From: an uncultured Pseudomonadota bacterium
GTDB lineage: Bacteria > Pseudomonadota > Gammaproteobacteria > Steroidobacterales > Steroidobacteraceae
DNA length: 64,000 nt
Assembly: GCA_903868595.1 (NCBI GenBank)
Contig: CAIPVV010000041.1
Span: forward strand, 34,081-98,080
Direction: 5' to 3'
Part shown: positions 14,520-19,947 of the stretch, piece by piece
How positions within the stretch are numbered: position 1 is the stretch's first letter
Layout: the number at the start of each line of letters is the position of its first letter
Position numbers and translations under genes: made by a program
The notes under the pieces: generated by a model
What the model was told of the DNA's origin: nothing
Database searches by the model: none
What the model saw: only the letters and a program-made list of their open reading frames with translations

Positions 14520-15038
14520 GTGAGCAAGCAAGACTCCCATTTCGCCAACATTTTCAGCGTAGTCCTCGGACTGCTGGTGACCTTCACGATCCTCATGTTC
14601 GCGCTGGCCCGCTATGTCGGCAGCCACACCCAGCGCCCGCAGGTCCTGGAAGACGACATGTACGTCGCCGGCGTGCAGGCACGCACCCAGCTGCCGGTGC
14701 GCCTGGCCATTGCCGGCCAGGACAATTCGGTCCTGACGATCGAGCCGCCCGCCGGCGCCAAGGCAGCCGGCGCGGGCGCCGCGCTGCCCCTGCCGAAGGA
14801 TGGCCACGAGGCGTTCGAGGCCGCCTGCAAGGCCTGCCACGGGGAAGGCCTCGCCGGCGCCCCCAAGGCCGGGGACCACACCGCCTGGGCACCGCGCATC
14901 GCGCAGGGCAAGGCGACGCTGTACCAGCACGCGCTGAACGGCTTCCAGAACAAGGGCGTGATGCCGGCCAAGGGTGGCCGGGTCGACTTCAGTGACGAGC
15001 TGGTCAAGTCGGCCGTCGACTACATGACCTCGCTCTAG
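14520..15038 (+). CDS. Membrane-anchored cytochrome c5-type monohaem protein
   Basis: A 172-residue protein. An N-terminal membrane segment (NIFSVVLGLLVTFTILMFALA, about residues 10-30) is not followed by a clear cleavage site and likely anchors it in the inner membrane. A periplasmic linker leads to a C-terminal haem domain with CKACHGEGLAGAPKAGD and MPAKGG..DFSDELVKSAVDYM. This fits the cytochrome c5 family, in which Met of the MPA motif is the sixth haem ligand. It presumably passes electrons from the bc1 complex to an oxidase. The start is GTG at 14520; no ATG precedes the membrane segment. Confidence 0.88.
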   Translation: MSKQDSHFANIFSVVLGLLVTFTILMFALARYVGSHTQRPQVLEDDMYVAGVQARTQLPVRLAIAGQDNSVLTIEPPAGAKAAGAGAALPLPKDGHEAFEAACKACHGEGLAGAPKAGDHTAWAPRIAQGKATLYQHALNGFQNKGVMPAKGGRVDFSDELVKSAVDYMTSL

Positions 15039-15227: not shown

Positions 15228-15473
15228 CTACTTCGGCTGCTGGGATTCCAGCTGGCGCACCCGCGCCTCCAACTGCTCCACCAGCTCCCGCGTGCGGGCG
15301 AGCACCCGCGTCTGGGTGTCGAACTCCTCGCGGGTGGTCAGGTCCAGCTTCGCCAGCCCCGACCGCAGCACGCTGCGGAAGTTGGCCTCCAGGTCCTGCT
15401 GGGCCGCGCGCAGCGAGGGCGGAATACTCTCCAACAGCCCGCGCGCGATCTCTTCGATGCGTTTCTGGTCCAT
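15228..15473 (-). CDS. ubiK: Ubiquinone biosynthesis accessory factor UbiK
   Basis: An 81-residue protein of the BMFP/YqiC family. MDQKRIEEIARGLLESIPPS is the typical start, followed by an amphipathic helix and the C-terminal coiled coil VLARTRELVEQLEARVRQLE. UbiK binds UbiJ and supports the soluble Ubi metabolon; ubiJ is in this window at 25574. GAGGAA seven bases before ATG 15473 marks the start; a longer frame from 15494 is less likely. It is divergent from the glnK-like gene, and the NtrC-like site lies just upstream of it. Confidence 0.88.
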   Translation of the reverse strand: MDQKRIEEIARGLLESIPPSLRAAQQDLEANFRSVLRSGLAKLDLTTREEFDTQTRVLARTRELVEQLEARVRQLESQQPK

Positions 15474-15496
15474 GAACGTTCCTCGCAAGGCCAATC

Positions 15497-15513
15497 GGCA
15501 CCGTATTGGTGCG
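15497..15513. promoter_or_regulatory. NtrC-like enhancer site
   Basis: The inverted repeat GCACC-GTATT-GGTGC matches the NtrC consensus TGCACC-N5-GGTGCA except for the outermost bases. It lies about 100 bp upstream of a sigma-54 promoter, the standard enhancer distance, and in front of P-II and amtB genes. The sequence match is seen; binding is inferred. Confidence 0.6.
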
Positions 15514-15594: not shown

Positions 15595-15610
15595 TGGCAC
15601 GGATTCTGCA
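15595..15610 (+). promoter_or_regulatory. Sigma-54 (RpoN) promoter
   Basis: TGGCACGGATTCTGCA matches the -24/-12 consensus TGGCACG-N4-TTGCA with one mismatch. The GG and GC elements have exactly the required spacing of 12 bases. It predicts transcription from about 15621 into the P-II and amtB genes, consistent with nitrogen-limited expression. Confidence 0.75.
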
Positions 15611-15703
15611 CTAACAACCCGGGCGCCGATCCTCTGGATGCAAGCGTACCGGACGATGTTCAACAACGTCGCTTCAAGGTCAGATCTTTGCGAAATGCAC
15701 ATC

Positions 15704-15991
15704 ATGAAGATGATCACGGCTGTCGTTCGGCCCTTCAAGCTGGACGAGCTCCGACATGCGATAGCGCAGTTAGGGGTGCAGGGCGTGACCGTCACCGAGG
15801 TGTGGGAAGCAGAGTTCGGACCTAGGGCAAAGCTGGAGATTGCTGTGGACGACAGCATCGCCGAGCCAGTCCTGGAAGCCATTGCGAATGTCTCGCGGAC
15901 GGGTCGTATCGGCGACGGAAAGATAATCGTTGGCAACCTTGAACAGGCTATTCGGATCCGCACCGGCGAGACCGGAACAGCGGCAACTTAA
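15704..15991 (+). CDS. P-II family nitrogen regulator lacking most of the T-loop
   Basis: Cytosolic trimeric 2-oxoglutarate/ATP sensor family. From ATG 15704 the protein has 95 residues, against 112 for GlnK/GlnB. The start MKMITAVVRPFKLDELRHAIAQLGVQGVTVTEV and the end (B-loop TGRIGDGKI, C-loop RIRTGETG) are fully conserved. Between TEV and KLEIAV only nine residues (WEAEFGPRA) remain where normal P-II has about 26, so the T-loop, with the uridylylation site Tyr51 and the AmtB-plugging Arg47, is gone. The frame stays open, so this is a clean in-frame difference. Codons such as GTT, TTA, ATA and CGA are more frequent than in neighbours. Upstream in-frame starts at 15695 and 15638 exist. amtB follows after 19 bases. 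Confidence 0.9.
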   Translation: MKMITAVVRPFKLDELRHAIAQLGVQGVTVTEVWEAEFGPRAKLEIAVDDSIAEPVLEAIANVSRTGRIGDGKIIVGNLEQAIRIRTGETGTAAT

Positions 15992-16010: not shown

Positions 16011-17426
16011 ATGCGCATTGATCTCGCCTCACTTACTTCCTCGCGATGGGCGCGCGGAGCAATGGTCACGCTGGGTGCGCTGGCGCCCCTGGTGGCTTCC
16101 GCCGCTGATGCAGTGGCTCCAGTGCCCAACAAGGGTGACACGGCCTGGATGATGACATCCACGGTCCTCGTCATCCTGATGACGATTCCGGGACTGGCCC
16201 TGTTCTACGGTGGCATGGTTCGCGGCAAGAACGTCTTGTCCGTGCTCATGCAGGTGTTCGTCACCTTCTCGCTGCTGGCCATCCTGTGGGCCATCTACGG
16301 CTACAGCATCGCCTTTACCCAGGGCAATGACTTCTTCGGCGGTTTCGATCGCCTCTTCCTGCACGGGATGACAAGCGACTCCACCGCGGCAACCTTCACC
16401 AAGGGTGTCGTGATTCCGGAGTACGTGTACTTCGTCTTCCAGCTGACCTTCGCAGCCATCACGCCTTGCCTCATCGTCGGCGCCTTCGCCGAACGCGTGA
16501 AGTTCTCGGCGATGCTGGTGTTCATGGTCCTCTGGTTCACCTTCTCCTACCTGCCGGTCGCGCACATGGTCTGGTTCTGGCAGGGTCCGGACGCCTACAC
16601 GAGTGCTGATGCCGGTGCTGCCGCCACGGCAACCGCTGGCTTCATCTTCCAGAAGGGCGCCCTCGACTTCGCCGGTGGAACGGTCGTGCACATCAACGCC
16701 GGTATCGCGGGCCTGATCGGTTGCTTGCTCGTCGGCAAGCGCACGGGCTACGGCAAGGTGGCCATGCCGCCGCACAACCTGCCGTACGTCATGATCGGCG
16801 CGTCCCTGCTGTGGGTTGGCTGGTTCGGCTTCAACGTCGGCTCCAACCTGGAAGCCACGGGCTTTGCAGCCGAAGTGTTCGCCAACACGCTGCTGGCCAC
16901 CGCTGCTGCGACGCTGAGCTGGATGTTCATGGAGTGGATCTCCAAGGGCACGCCGACGATGCTGGGTGCCGCCTCCGGTGCGGTGGCTGGCTTGGTCGCC
17001 ATCACCCCGGCCTGCGGCTACGTGGGTCCGATGGGCTCCATCGTCCTGGGCCTCCTTGCCGGCGTGATCTGCCTGCTGTCGGTCTCCAAGCTCAAGAGCG
17101 CGCTGGGGTACGACGATTCGCTGGACGTCTTCGGCGTCCACTGCATCGGCGGAATCCTGGGCGCCATCCTGACGGGTGTCTTCAACGACCCCGCCCTGGG
17201 CGGCGCCGGTTCCTACGACTACGTGGCCGACAAGGTCGCCGACTTCGACATGGCTGCGCAGGTGATCTCGCAGTGCTGGGGTGTCGGTGTGACGATCGTC
17301 TGGTCCGGTGTTGTGGCCCTGGTTGCCTACAAGCTGGTTGACTGGACCATCGGCCTGCGGGTCAGCGAGGACGTCGAGCGTGAGGGTCTGGATACGACCC
17401 TGCACGGCGAGCGCGCCTACGACTGA
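16011..17426 (+). CDS. amtB: Ammonium transporter AmtB
   Basis: A 471-residue inner-membrane ammonium channel with a cleavable signal peptide (LGALAPLVASA) and eleven predicted membrane segments. The twin-histidine pore pair is present (H227 in VVHINAG, H377 in GVHCIGG), as are the signature DFAGGTVVH and GGMVRGKN and a cytoplasmic tail ending ERAYD. It follows the P-II-like gene under one sigma-54 promoter, the canonical glnK-amtB arrangement. GGGAG before ATG 16011 fixes the start. In the canonical system GlnK's T-loop blocks the pore when nitrogen is plentiful; the linked P-II here could not do that in the known way. Confidence 0.95.
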   Translation: MRIDLASLTSSRWARGAMVTLGALAPLVASAADAVAPVPNKGDTAWMMTSTVLVILMTIPGLALFYGGMVRGKNVLSVLMQVFVTFSLLAILWAIYGYSIAFTQGNDFFGGFDRLFLHGMTSDSTAATFTKGVVIPEYVYFVFQLTFAAITPCLIVGAFAERVKFSAMLVFMVLWFTFSYLPVAHMVWFWQGPDAYTSADAGAAATATAGFIFQKGALDFAGGTVVHINAGIAGLIGCLLVGKRTGYGKVAMPPHNLPYVMIGASLLWVGWFGFNVGSNLEATGFAAEVFANTLLATAAATLSWMFMEWISKGTPTMLGAASGAVAGLVAITPACGYVGPMGSIVLGLLAGVICLLSVSKLKSALGYDDSLDVFGVHCIGGILGAILTGVFNDPALGGAGSYDYVADKVADFDMAAQVISQCWGVGVTIVWSGVVALVAYKLVDWTIGLRVSEDVEREGLDTTLHGERAYD

Positions 17427-17736: not shown

Positions 17737-18192
17737 ATGCGCTACACACTGACCACCCTGTTTGCGACTGCCGTGCTGGCCGCCCTTGCGGCACAGGCCG
17801 GTGACATCTATCGCTGGAAGGACGCCGCCGGTACCTGGCATTACGCCGACCAGCCCGTCCCCGGCGCCGAGCGCCTGAGCACGGCCTCGCGGCAGACCGC
17901 CCCCAGCGACGACGCGATACCGGCCGAGTCGCCGCCCAAGGCCAAGCCCGCCGCGGCCACCGCCTCGCCCAATGCGCCGTCCGGCCAGGTCGCCCAGCGC
18001 GTCAAGCAGGACGTGGCTGCCGCGCGCGCCGAGCATTGCAAGAAGGCGACCGAGGACTATGAGCTGGCGATCTCCGCGCGGCGCCTCTTCAAGGCGGGCC
18101 CGAACGGCGAGCAGCAGTTCCTCGACGAGGACCAGATGGAAGCCCACCGGGTTGCCGCCCGCAGCGAGATGGAAAACCTCTGCGGCAAGTAG
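17737..18192 (+). CDS. Exported DUF4124-domain protein
   Basis: A 151-residue protein. A signal peptide (TLFATAVLAALAAQA) precedes the short DUF4124 domain GDIYRWKDAAGTWHYADQPVPGAE. DUF4124 is a small beta-rich module common in proteobacterial periplasmic proteins of unknown role. The middle is Pro/Ala-rich and the C-terminal 60 residues are charged and helical. GGAG before ATG 17737 marks the start. The 240 bases between the amtB terminator and this gene hold nothing I can identify. The next gene begins 14 bases after its stop and may be cotranscribed. Confidence 0.8.
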   Translation: MRYTLTTLFATAVLAALAAQAGDIYRWKDAAGTWHYADQPVPGAERLSTASRQTAPSDDAIPAESPPKAKPAAATASPNAPSGQVAQRVKQDVAAARAEHCKKATEDYELAISARRLFKAGPNGEQQFLDEDQMEAHRVAARSEMENLCGK

Positions 18193-19113: not shown

Positions 19114-19947
19114 ATGCGCATCGAGTTCACCAAGATGCACGGGCTGGGCAATGACTTCATCGTCCTGGAGTCCCCGTCCGCTGCGACCCGGATCACGCCC
19201 GCGCAATGGCGCGCGCTGGCCGACCGCCATCGCGGCGTGGGTTTTGACCAGGCGCTGGTCATCGAGCCGCCGCGCCGCGACGGCACCGAGGCCTACTACC
19301 GCATCTTCAACGCCGATGGCCAGGAGGTCGAGCAGTGCGGCAATGGCGCGCGCTGCATCGCGGAGCTGCTGCGTCTCACTGGCCGCTCCCGCGCCGGCCA
19401 GGTGCAGATGGACAGCCCCGGCGGGCTGATCACCGCGCACGTGCCCGGTGGCGGCGTGGTCGCGGTGGACATGGGCCTGCCCAACTTTGCGCCCCGCGCC
19501 GCCCACTTCCTGCCGCAGGGCCAGGAGGGCGCCCTCTTTACCCTGGAGGTGGGCGGCGAGCGCGTCACCTTCGGCGTCGTCTCGATGGGCAATCCGCACG
19601 CCGTGATCCGCGTGCCCGATGTGGACAGCGCGCCGGTGGCGCGCCTGGGCCCGCTGCTGGAGCGCCACCCAGCCTTCCAGCAGCGTGTGAACGTCGGGTT
19701 CATGCAGGTCGTGGACCCGCGCCATATCCGCCTGCGCGTCTTCGAGCGCGGCGTGGGGGAGACGCAGGCCTGCGGCACGGGCGCCTGCGGCGCCGTGGCC
19801 GTGGGTCGCCGCGCGGGCCTCCTGGAGGAGGAGGTGCGCGTGAGTCTGCCGGGCGGGGACCTCACGGTCCGCTGGCCCGGCGAAGGCAAGCCGCTTTGGC
19901 TGCAAGGCCCTGCTGAAGTATCGTTCCGCGGCCAGGTCGATGTCTGA
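19114..19947 (+). CDS. dapF: Diaminopimelate epimerase
   Basis: A 277-residue enzyme that converts LL- to meso-diaminopimelate for lysine and peptidoglycan. The two catalytic cysteines are present: C75 in EQCGNGARC and C220 in QACGTGACGAVAVG. The start MRIEFTKMHGLGNDFIV is canonical. The order dapF-DUF484-xerC is conserved across gammaproteobacteria. It is intact and of normal length. Confidence 0.97.
   Translation: MRIEFTKMHGLGNDFIVLESPSAATRITPAQWRALADRHRGVGFDQALVIEPPRRDGTEAYYRIFNADGQEVEQCGNGARCIAELLRLTGRSRAGQVQMDSPGGLITAHVPGGGVVAVDMGLPNFAPRAAHFLPQGQEGALFTLEVGGERVTFGVVSMGNPHAVIRVPDVDSAPVARLGPLLERHPAFQQRVNVGFMQVVDPRHIRLRVFERGVGETQACGTGACGAVAVGRRAGLLEEEVRVSLPGGDLTVRWPGEGKPLWLQGPAEVSFRGQVDV

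Follow-up and report, generated by a model that had tools for sequence, protein, structure and literature searches.

A natural P-II lineage without a T-loop at the glnK-amtB locus of Steroidobacteraceae, tentatively read as a P-II body switched by its expression

What can a P-II signal protein do when it is encoded directly before amtB and has lost its T-loop, the element that, in the parts of PMC4285133 and PMC8395244 dealing with it, binds most P-II targets? The window, as the whole stretch of 64,000 nucleotides analysed here is called, encodes a protein that is a P-II by homology and predicted fold and a GlnK by position, yet is devoid of the defining T-loop. Our answer, held tentatively, is that its P-II body may well be switched by its own nitrogen-starvation promoter, its lateral face acting on T-loop-independent targets.

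The gene lies at positions 15704 to 15991 of the forward strand and encodes 95 amino acids followed by a stop codon; an alternative start at 15695 would give 98 amino acids, and a database copy (P0002) begins 9 bases upstream. The reading frame is clean on translation and the product scores 67.6 bits against the Pfam P-II profile (PF00543, cut-off 25), which, together with relatives that have the identical 17-residue deletion, confirms the T-loop-less P-II in a clean frame described in an earlier note on this DNA. That note had about 17 residues replaced by nine: a loss of 17 residues relative to 112-residue P-II relatives stands, but the replacement consists of three residues, Trp-Glu-Ala (codons 34-36, positions 15803 to 15811, forward strand), which take the place of residues 34-53 when the proteins are aligned by position, and the nine had reached into the next strand. 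The deleted segment is the whole T-loop, with Gln39 at its base and Arg47 and Tyr51 at its tip. Arg47 and Tyr51 of the T-loop of canonical GlnK and GlnB are absent in the window and in 171 proteins of equal spacing, and the claim that the residues used for plugging AmtB are missing holds, Arg47 having been deleted with the loop. The NCBIfam GlnK equivalog model (NF007946) gives 88.9 bits, below its cut-off of 181. Further along the forward strand are the B-loop, Arg-Thr-Gly-Arg-Ile-Gly-Asp-Gly-Lys (P-II residues 82-90, positions 15896 to 15922), in which the Gly-Asp-Gly (GDG) motif is invariant and positions 86 and 90 are variable within the deletion family, and the C-loop, Arg-Ile-Arg (positions 15953 to 15961), whose two arginines (Arg101 and Arg103 in P-II numbering) are invariant in that family. 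A single-chain AlphaFold2 model (pLDDT 88.1, pTM 0.76, 62 aligned sequences) has the ferredoxin-like core of P-II, with a short, tight turn predicted between strands 29-35 and 39-48. All of the 50 PDB structural matches listed for this model are P-II chains (TM 0.87-0.94), and the engineered T-loop-deleted GlnZ of entry 5ovo is among the matches listed, with a TM of 0.91.

The deletion is shared by many proteins. In two protein searches, from which the best 120 matches of each were taken and which include the query (P0001), the spacing shorter by 17 residues is present in 171 of 236 proteins; the 171 include one partial sequence, and the deletion proteins come from many contigs. This disposes of the possibility, raised earlier, that no relatives share the deletion. 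When 30 deletion representatives were placed in a tree with 27 normal P-II proteins, they grouped as a single clade (support 100/99.7); this tree left out G079, a long-branched P-II with a degenerate loop and an unsure place, which fell among the deletion clade in a first tree. The T-loop-less gene was found in six of nine genomes of the window's own genus and in 16 of 150 genomes of the family, all of them from two genera (g1 and g10) of Steroidobacteraceae, with frames open and without stops in each of the 16. It is present in 9 of 296 genomes of an order sample, again only in g1 and g10 (strict threshold 1e-25), and in 1 of 398 genomes of a phylum sample, which is the window's own genome (strict threshold 1e-24); outside Steroidobacteraceae, no T-loop-less P-II was found in these order and phylum samples at the strict thresholds, which would miss distant T-loop-less P-II proteins. 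In a collection of named genomes, 11 of the 59 loci found carry the gene. The nearest full-length relatives seen are GlnK proteins from other genera of Steroidobacteraceae. A 100-residue database P-II (P0218), encoded on a single contig of 860 bases, has a different loss, of 12 residues before Tyr51, and may be an error.

Other altered P-II proteins occur in the family. Three genomes of genus g7 (L155, L157 and L044) encode a P-II of normal length with a scrambled T-loop, the changes Lys58Leu, Lys90Glu and Phe92Trp and a neighbour half that is intact; its gene is immediately followed by that of a normal P-II. In one of the three, G079 (L145), the pair has ubiK as upstream neighbour and is followed by a gene that reads like DUF4124 and not like amtB. 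Once the loop columns are removed, the deletion proteins and the three degenerate g7 proteins separate together from the other P-II proteins (94/98); this loop-masked tree does not recover a clade of the deletion proteins by themselves, yet neither such a clade (AU p 0.31) nor a grouping of g7 with g3 (AU p 0.37) is rejected. The first P-II of some tandem pairs also has an eroded T-loop, with Tyr51 replaced in L156 and L158 and Gln39 in L158 and L161.

The surroundings identify the gene. The order is ubiK (divergent), P-II, amtB, DUF4124, a dehydrogenase, dapF, a DUF484-like gene, xerC and hslV. The divergent neighbour ubiK (YqiC/BMFP; positions 15228 to 15494, reverse strand), which marks the glnK-amtB locus, scores 82 bits with the Pfam BMFP profile and 98.8 with the UbiK model, just below the cut-off of 100. 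Downstream, 11 loci offer enough sequence for comparison, and the DUF4124 gene (positions 17737 to 18192, forward strand) and dapF (positions 19114 to 19947, forward strand) were each found in 10 of these. Divergent ubiK is upstream in all 16 T-loop-less loci, and full-length glnK of other genera occupies the same place between ubiK and amtB; therefore, the T-loop-less gene is GlnK by position. The link to amtB seen in the earlier note is borne out: amtB (471 amino acids) follows at positions 16011 to 17426 on the forward strand, and it is the next gene in 14 of the 16 loci. Of the two exceptions, the contig ends after 171 bases in G148, and in G117 DUF4124 comes directly after the P-II gene. 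G117 has thus kept the T-loop-less gene at a locus from which amtB has disappeared; the amtB found in that genome lies elsewhere. The window's genome has another amtB (L121, G000 C21), which has no adjacent P-II, and an NtrC-like regulator, below its family cut-off, lies beside it on the opposite strand. Beyond ubiK, the window has a small cytochrome c gene (14520 to 15038), and several relatives have there instead a long gene resembling comM. A search of 22 hand-picked relatives located ubiK in 18; in the stretch of about 1.5 kb covered on each side there were glnK and amtB in six, amtB without a P-II in eight, neither in three and two P-II genes in one; the eight, in which no P-II was detected between ubiK and amtB, are L140-L144, L146, L149 and L152. 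Since amtB lacks a P-II before it at 8 of these 18 ubiK loci, glnK seems to have been lost often at this locus within the family.

The amtB partners themselves do not share one history. A single origin of the 14 partner AmtB proteins was rejected (AU p 3.6e-42, tested after an initial tree had been seen); their tree has five changes of partner type, so that the T-loop-less gene precedes AmtB proteins of several lineages, and the partners in G037 and G053 are closest to AmtB proteins that neighbour a full-length GlnK. The window's AmtB keeps the C-terminal tail of the E. coli type, as do the partner AmtB proteins, six of which, from genus g10, are without the last Ala-Tyr. It also keeps the equivalents of Ser263, Asp309, Asp310 and Asp313, positions that presumably meet the loop of GlnK; these are kept in all 12 partners that cover them, the other two of the 14 being cut by contig ends.

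Upstream of the gene, both promoter elements claimed earlier, a sigma-54 site and an NtrC-like enhancer, are present. The sigma-54-like promoter, TGGCAC-N5-CTGC (TGGCACGGATTCTGC; positions 15595 to 15609, forward strand), has a counterpart with at most two mismatches 109-121 bases before the start in all 16 loci; when upstream regions were shuffled, 227 of 3200 contained any sigma-54-like site. The NtrC-like palindrome is exact (GCACCGTATTGGTGC; positions 15498 to 15512) and matches exactly in six of six loci of the same genus; in the second genus, g10, it was found in one of ten loci, with one mismatch, and NtrC control is for this reason suggested, from the sites, for the window's own genus only. 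Both kinds of site turned up in one region in 12 of 3200 shuffled sequences; of 409 other stretches taken from the loci, 3 had both. NtrC scored over its cut-off in eight of nine genomes tested, and GlnD did so in all nine.

The coding sequence is under strong purifying selection: of 120 gene pairs, 99 have a dS between 0 and 2, and in these dN/dS (NG86) has a median of 0.12 and reaches at most 0.25. Residue by residue, 149 deletion rows were compared with 63 normal ones, leaving out P0001 (the query), P0195 (partial), P0218 (with its different, shorter loss), P0147 (trimming), duplicates and three rows of 93 residues. The two sets have similar totals of Fitch changes (477 in the deletion family and 434 in normal relatives). 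The positions that changed faster in the deletion family include Phe92 (27 against 2), Phe55 (22 against 1), Lys90 (17 against 3) and Ile86 (44 against 14), as well as positions 77 (9 against 0) and 3 (6 against 0), which lie outside the pocket. A speed-up like that of 86, 90 and 92, a triple chosen after the site table had been seen, was matched by 82 of 20000 random position triples. Conversely, some positions are invariant only in the deletion family: residue 112 (0 changes against 10), 78 (0 against 8), 12, 17 and 21 (0 against 5 each), and 82 and 58 (0 against 4 each). The new invariant positions of the two helices are Lys12, Arg17, Ala21, Ala78, Asn79 and Arg82, to which the C-terminus is added; from P-II structure, we take these helix positions to be surface-exposed and outer-facing. 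Among 14 deletion members below 85% identity, Thr29, Ala64, Arg9, Arg58, Arg17, Asn79, Arg82, Arg101, Arg103 and Thr112 are present in all 14, Lys90 in one and Phe92 in none (Thr or Ser in seven), as against 15 of 20 for Lys90 and 18 of 20 for Phe92 among normals below the same identity. Position 58 is Arg in the deletion family and Lys in many normals. In the window's copy, Lys90 and Ile86 are retained and position 92 is Ile.

These positions can be placed on the known binding site. In the relevant passages of PMC8395244, Phe92 flanks the adenine; there and in passages of PMC3198391, Lys90 and Gln39 bind the nucleotide, with Gln39 completing the Mg2+ sphere, the carboxylate of 2-oxoglutarate is held by Arg9 and Lys58, and Thr29', residue 64', Arg101' and Arg103' are primed, which we read as belonging to the neighbouring subunit. 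With Gln39 deleted, Arg at 58, Lys90 in 1 of 14 and Phe92 in 0 of 14 diverse members, the residues depart from the canonical pocket for ATP, Mg and 2-oxoglutarate. Judged by its residues, the protein has had much of its own half of the 2-oxoglutarate/ATP site dismantled; Arg9 and a basic side chain at position 58 remain there, and the half lent to the neighbour is fully kept. The invariance of Arg9 and Arg58 counts against a complete loss of the 2-oxoglutarate pocket. The suggestion that the loops binding ATP and 2-oxoglutarate are kept is consequently right for the GDG motif and the C-loop arginines and wrong for Gln39, which is deleted, and for Lys90, Phe92 and Ile86, which are largely lost across the family.

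The loss of the arm that engineered GlnZ also lacks, the further losses in the 2-oxoglutarate site, the newly fixed helix residues and a starvation-type promoter site together lead us, with due reserve, to prefer an explanation in which the protein is a P-II body that signals by being synthesized. In its most far-reaching form, put forward with equal reserve, this is a natural P-II lineage without the 2-oxoglutarate switch and without the T-loop, which is regarded as the essential output arm of P-II, and transcription would have replaced ligand binding as the carrier of the nitrogen signal: a constitutive body, made in starvation only, would act on T-loop-independent targets or in mixed trimers, and AmtB would stay unplugged. 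Because the residues needed are absent, such a protein should be unable to plug AmtB or to be uridylylated at Tyr51; it would also no longer respond to 2-oxoglutarate, in which case its synthesis itself would be the nitrogen signal. That it may bind one or more T-loop-independent partners is suggested by engineered GlnZ. As described in part of PMC7196632, GlnZ deleted for residues 42-54 relieves the inhibition of NadE2 despite 2-oxoglutarate, and in part of PMC11617674, T-loop-deleted GlnZ binds UmpH without release by 2-oxoglutarate, the lateral face (residues 69-82) being the suggested site. The title of PDB entry 5ovo names DraG with GlnZ-delta42-54, and the complex is known here from that title alone. 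When UmpH-type and NAD synthetase matches were compared across genomes, no partner of the T-loop-less P-II was found. An UmpH-type HAD-IIA match is present in only 7 of the 16 genomes that carry the gene (six of six in the window's genus, one of ten in the second), one of these matches being a fragment and only two exceeding the curated cut-off, which rules UmpH out as the general partner; a strong NAD synthetase domain occurs in 14 of these 16 genomes and in all five genomes that lack the gene, and is therefore uninformative. Three observations weigh against a P-II body switched by expression. Arg9 and residue 58, the holders of the 2-oxoglutarate carboxylate in normal P-II, are invariant; the most accelerated positions include 77 and 3, outside the pocket; and the gene is closely tied to amtB in several AmtB lineages, which suggests a role connected with AmtB for which this explanation does not by itself account.

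The main rival, which we consider possible but somewhat unlikely, is that the protein joins full-length GlnB in mixed trimers, as a subunit free of a T-loop, so that each trimer has fewer T-loops and the GlnB brake on AmtB and NtrB is eased in nitrogen shortage. The AmtB partners that cover the assumed GlnK docking residues all keep them (12 of 12, out of 14 partners), and the residues lent to the neighbour (Thr29', 64', Arg101' and Arg103') are invariant while Gln39, Lys90 and Phe92 of the own site are lost; this asymmetry is partly broken, however, by Arg9 and Arg58, own-side residues that are likewise invariant. Moreover, the kept residues also bind AMP or ADP, according to part of PMC7919409. 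The three g7 genomes, in which the gene for a P-II with scrambled T-loop and intact neighbour half immediately precedes that of a normal one, fit mixed trimers as well, and heterotrimers are known for P-II proteins: even S. elongatus PII forms them with E. coli GlnB or GlnK (from part of PMC11121479). At least one full-length P-II is encoded in all 16 genomes with the T-loop-less gene, and the full-length glnB or glnK that had been proposed as a check was found elsewhere in the window's genome, as one full-length glnB; full-length GlnB is, however, near universal, so its presence says little for mixed trimers, and only 44 of the 95 positions of the window's P-II are identical to the GlnB of its own genome.

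On the other hand, the protein could be a homotrimer that binds AMP or ADP through Thr29, the backbone of the B-loop and Arg101/Arg103, and thus an energy sensor without 2-oxoglutarate input. Thr29, residue 64, GDG, Arg101 and Arg103 are invariant, and part of PMC7919409 describes the corresponding positions of C. glutamicum GlnK as contacts of AMP or ADP, but the adenine-flanking Phe92 is present in none of the 14 diverse members and Lys90 in just one, and we regard this explanation as improbable. Less probable still, to the point of being very doubtful, is a relic on its way to loss, as the earlier note had also considered: amtB stands without a P-II before it in 8 of the 18 related genomes with ubiK found (22 having been picked) and the gene of G117 is no longer beside amtB, but a dN/dS of 0.12, open frames in 16 of 16 genomes, a conserved promoter site and position and new invariant residues all speak against decay. 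The earlier interpretation as a whole thus keeps its T-loop-less protein, amtB link, promoter, missing plug residues and coexisting GlnB, retains half of its preserved loops, lives on in its mixed-trimer idea as the main rival and gives up the way to loss. Finally, an assembly or sequencing error, conceivable in a draft genome of 61 contigs, is untenable because 16 genomes share the identical deletion and many further contigs have it as well.

Several known systems come close to this protein, and among the papers listed in searches of an open-access library no natural T-loop-less P-II appeared. A conserved natural protein of this kind, at the locus of the loop's best-known role, makes functions that reside in the P-II body directly testable and points to partners beyond the known list. 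Compared with GlnK encoded with amtB, the window's P-II shares the ubiK-glnK-amtB locus, the fold, the GDG motif and C-loop arginines and a sigma-54-like site, but it is without the T-loop, Tyr51, Arg47 and Gln39, and its own-side pocket residues are relaxed. Engineered Azospirillum brasilense GlnZ delta42-54 is likewise a P-II from which the T-loop was removed; that protein, however, is man-made, has 13 residues removed and keeps the loop base Gly-Phe-Gly-Arg-Gln-Lys-Gly, whereas the natural deletion, by alignment, removes the base too. PstA, SbtB, CutA, PII-NG and PotN are trimeric, ferredoxin-like relatives of P-II with altered or short loops. From these, going by their descriptions, the deletion family is set apart by being near canonical P-II outside the loop and by its place at the glnK locus.
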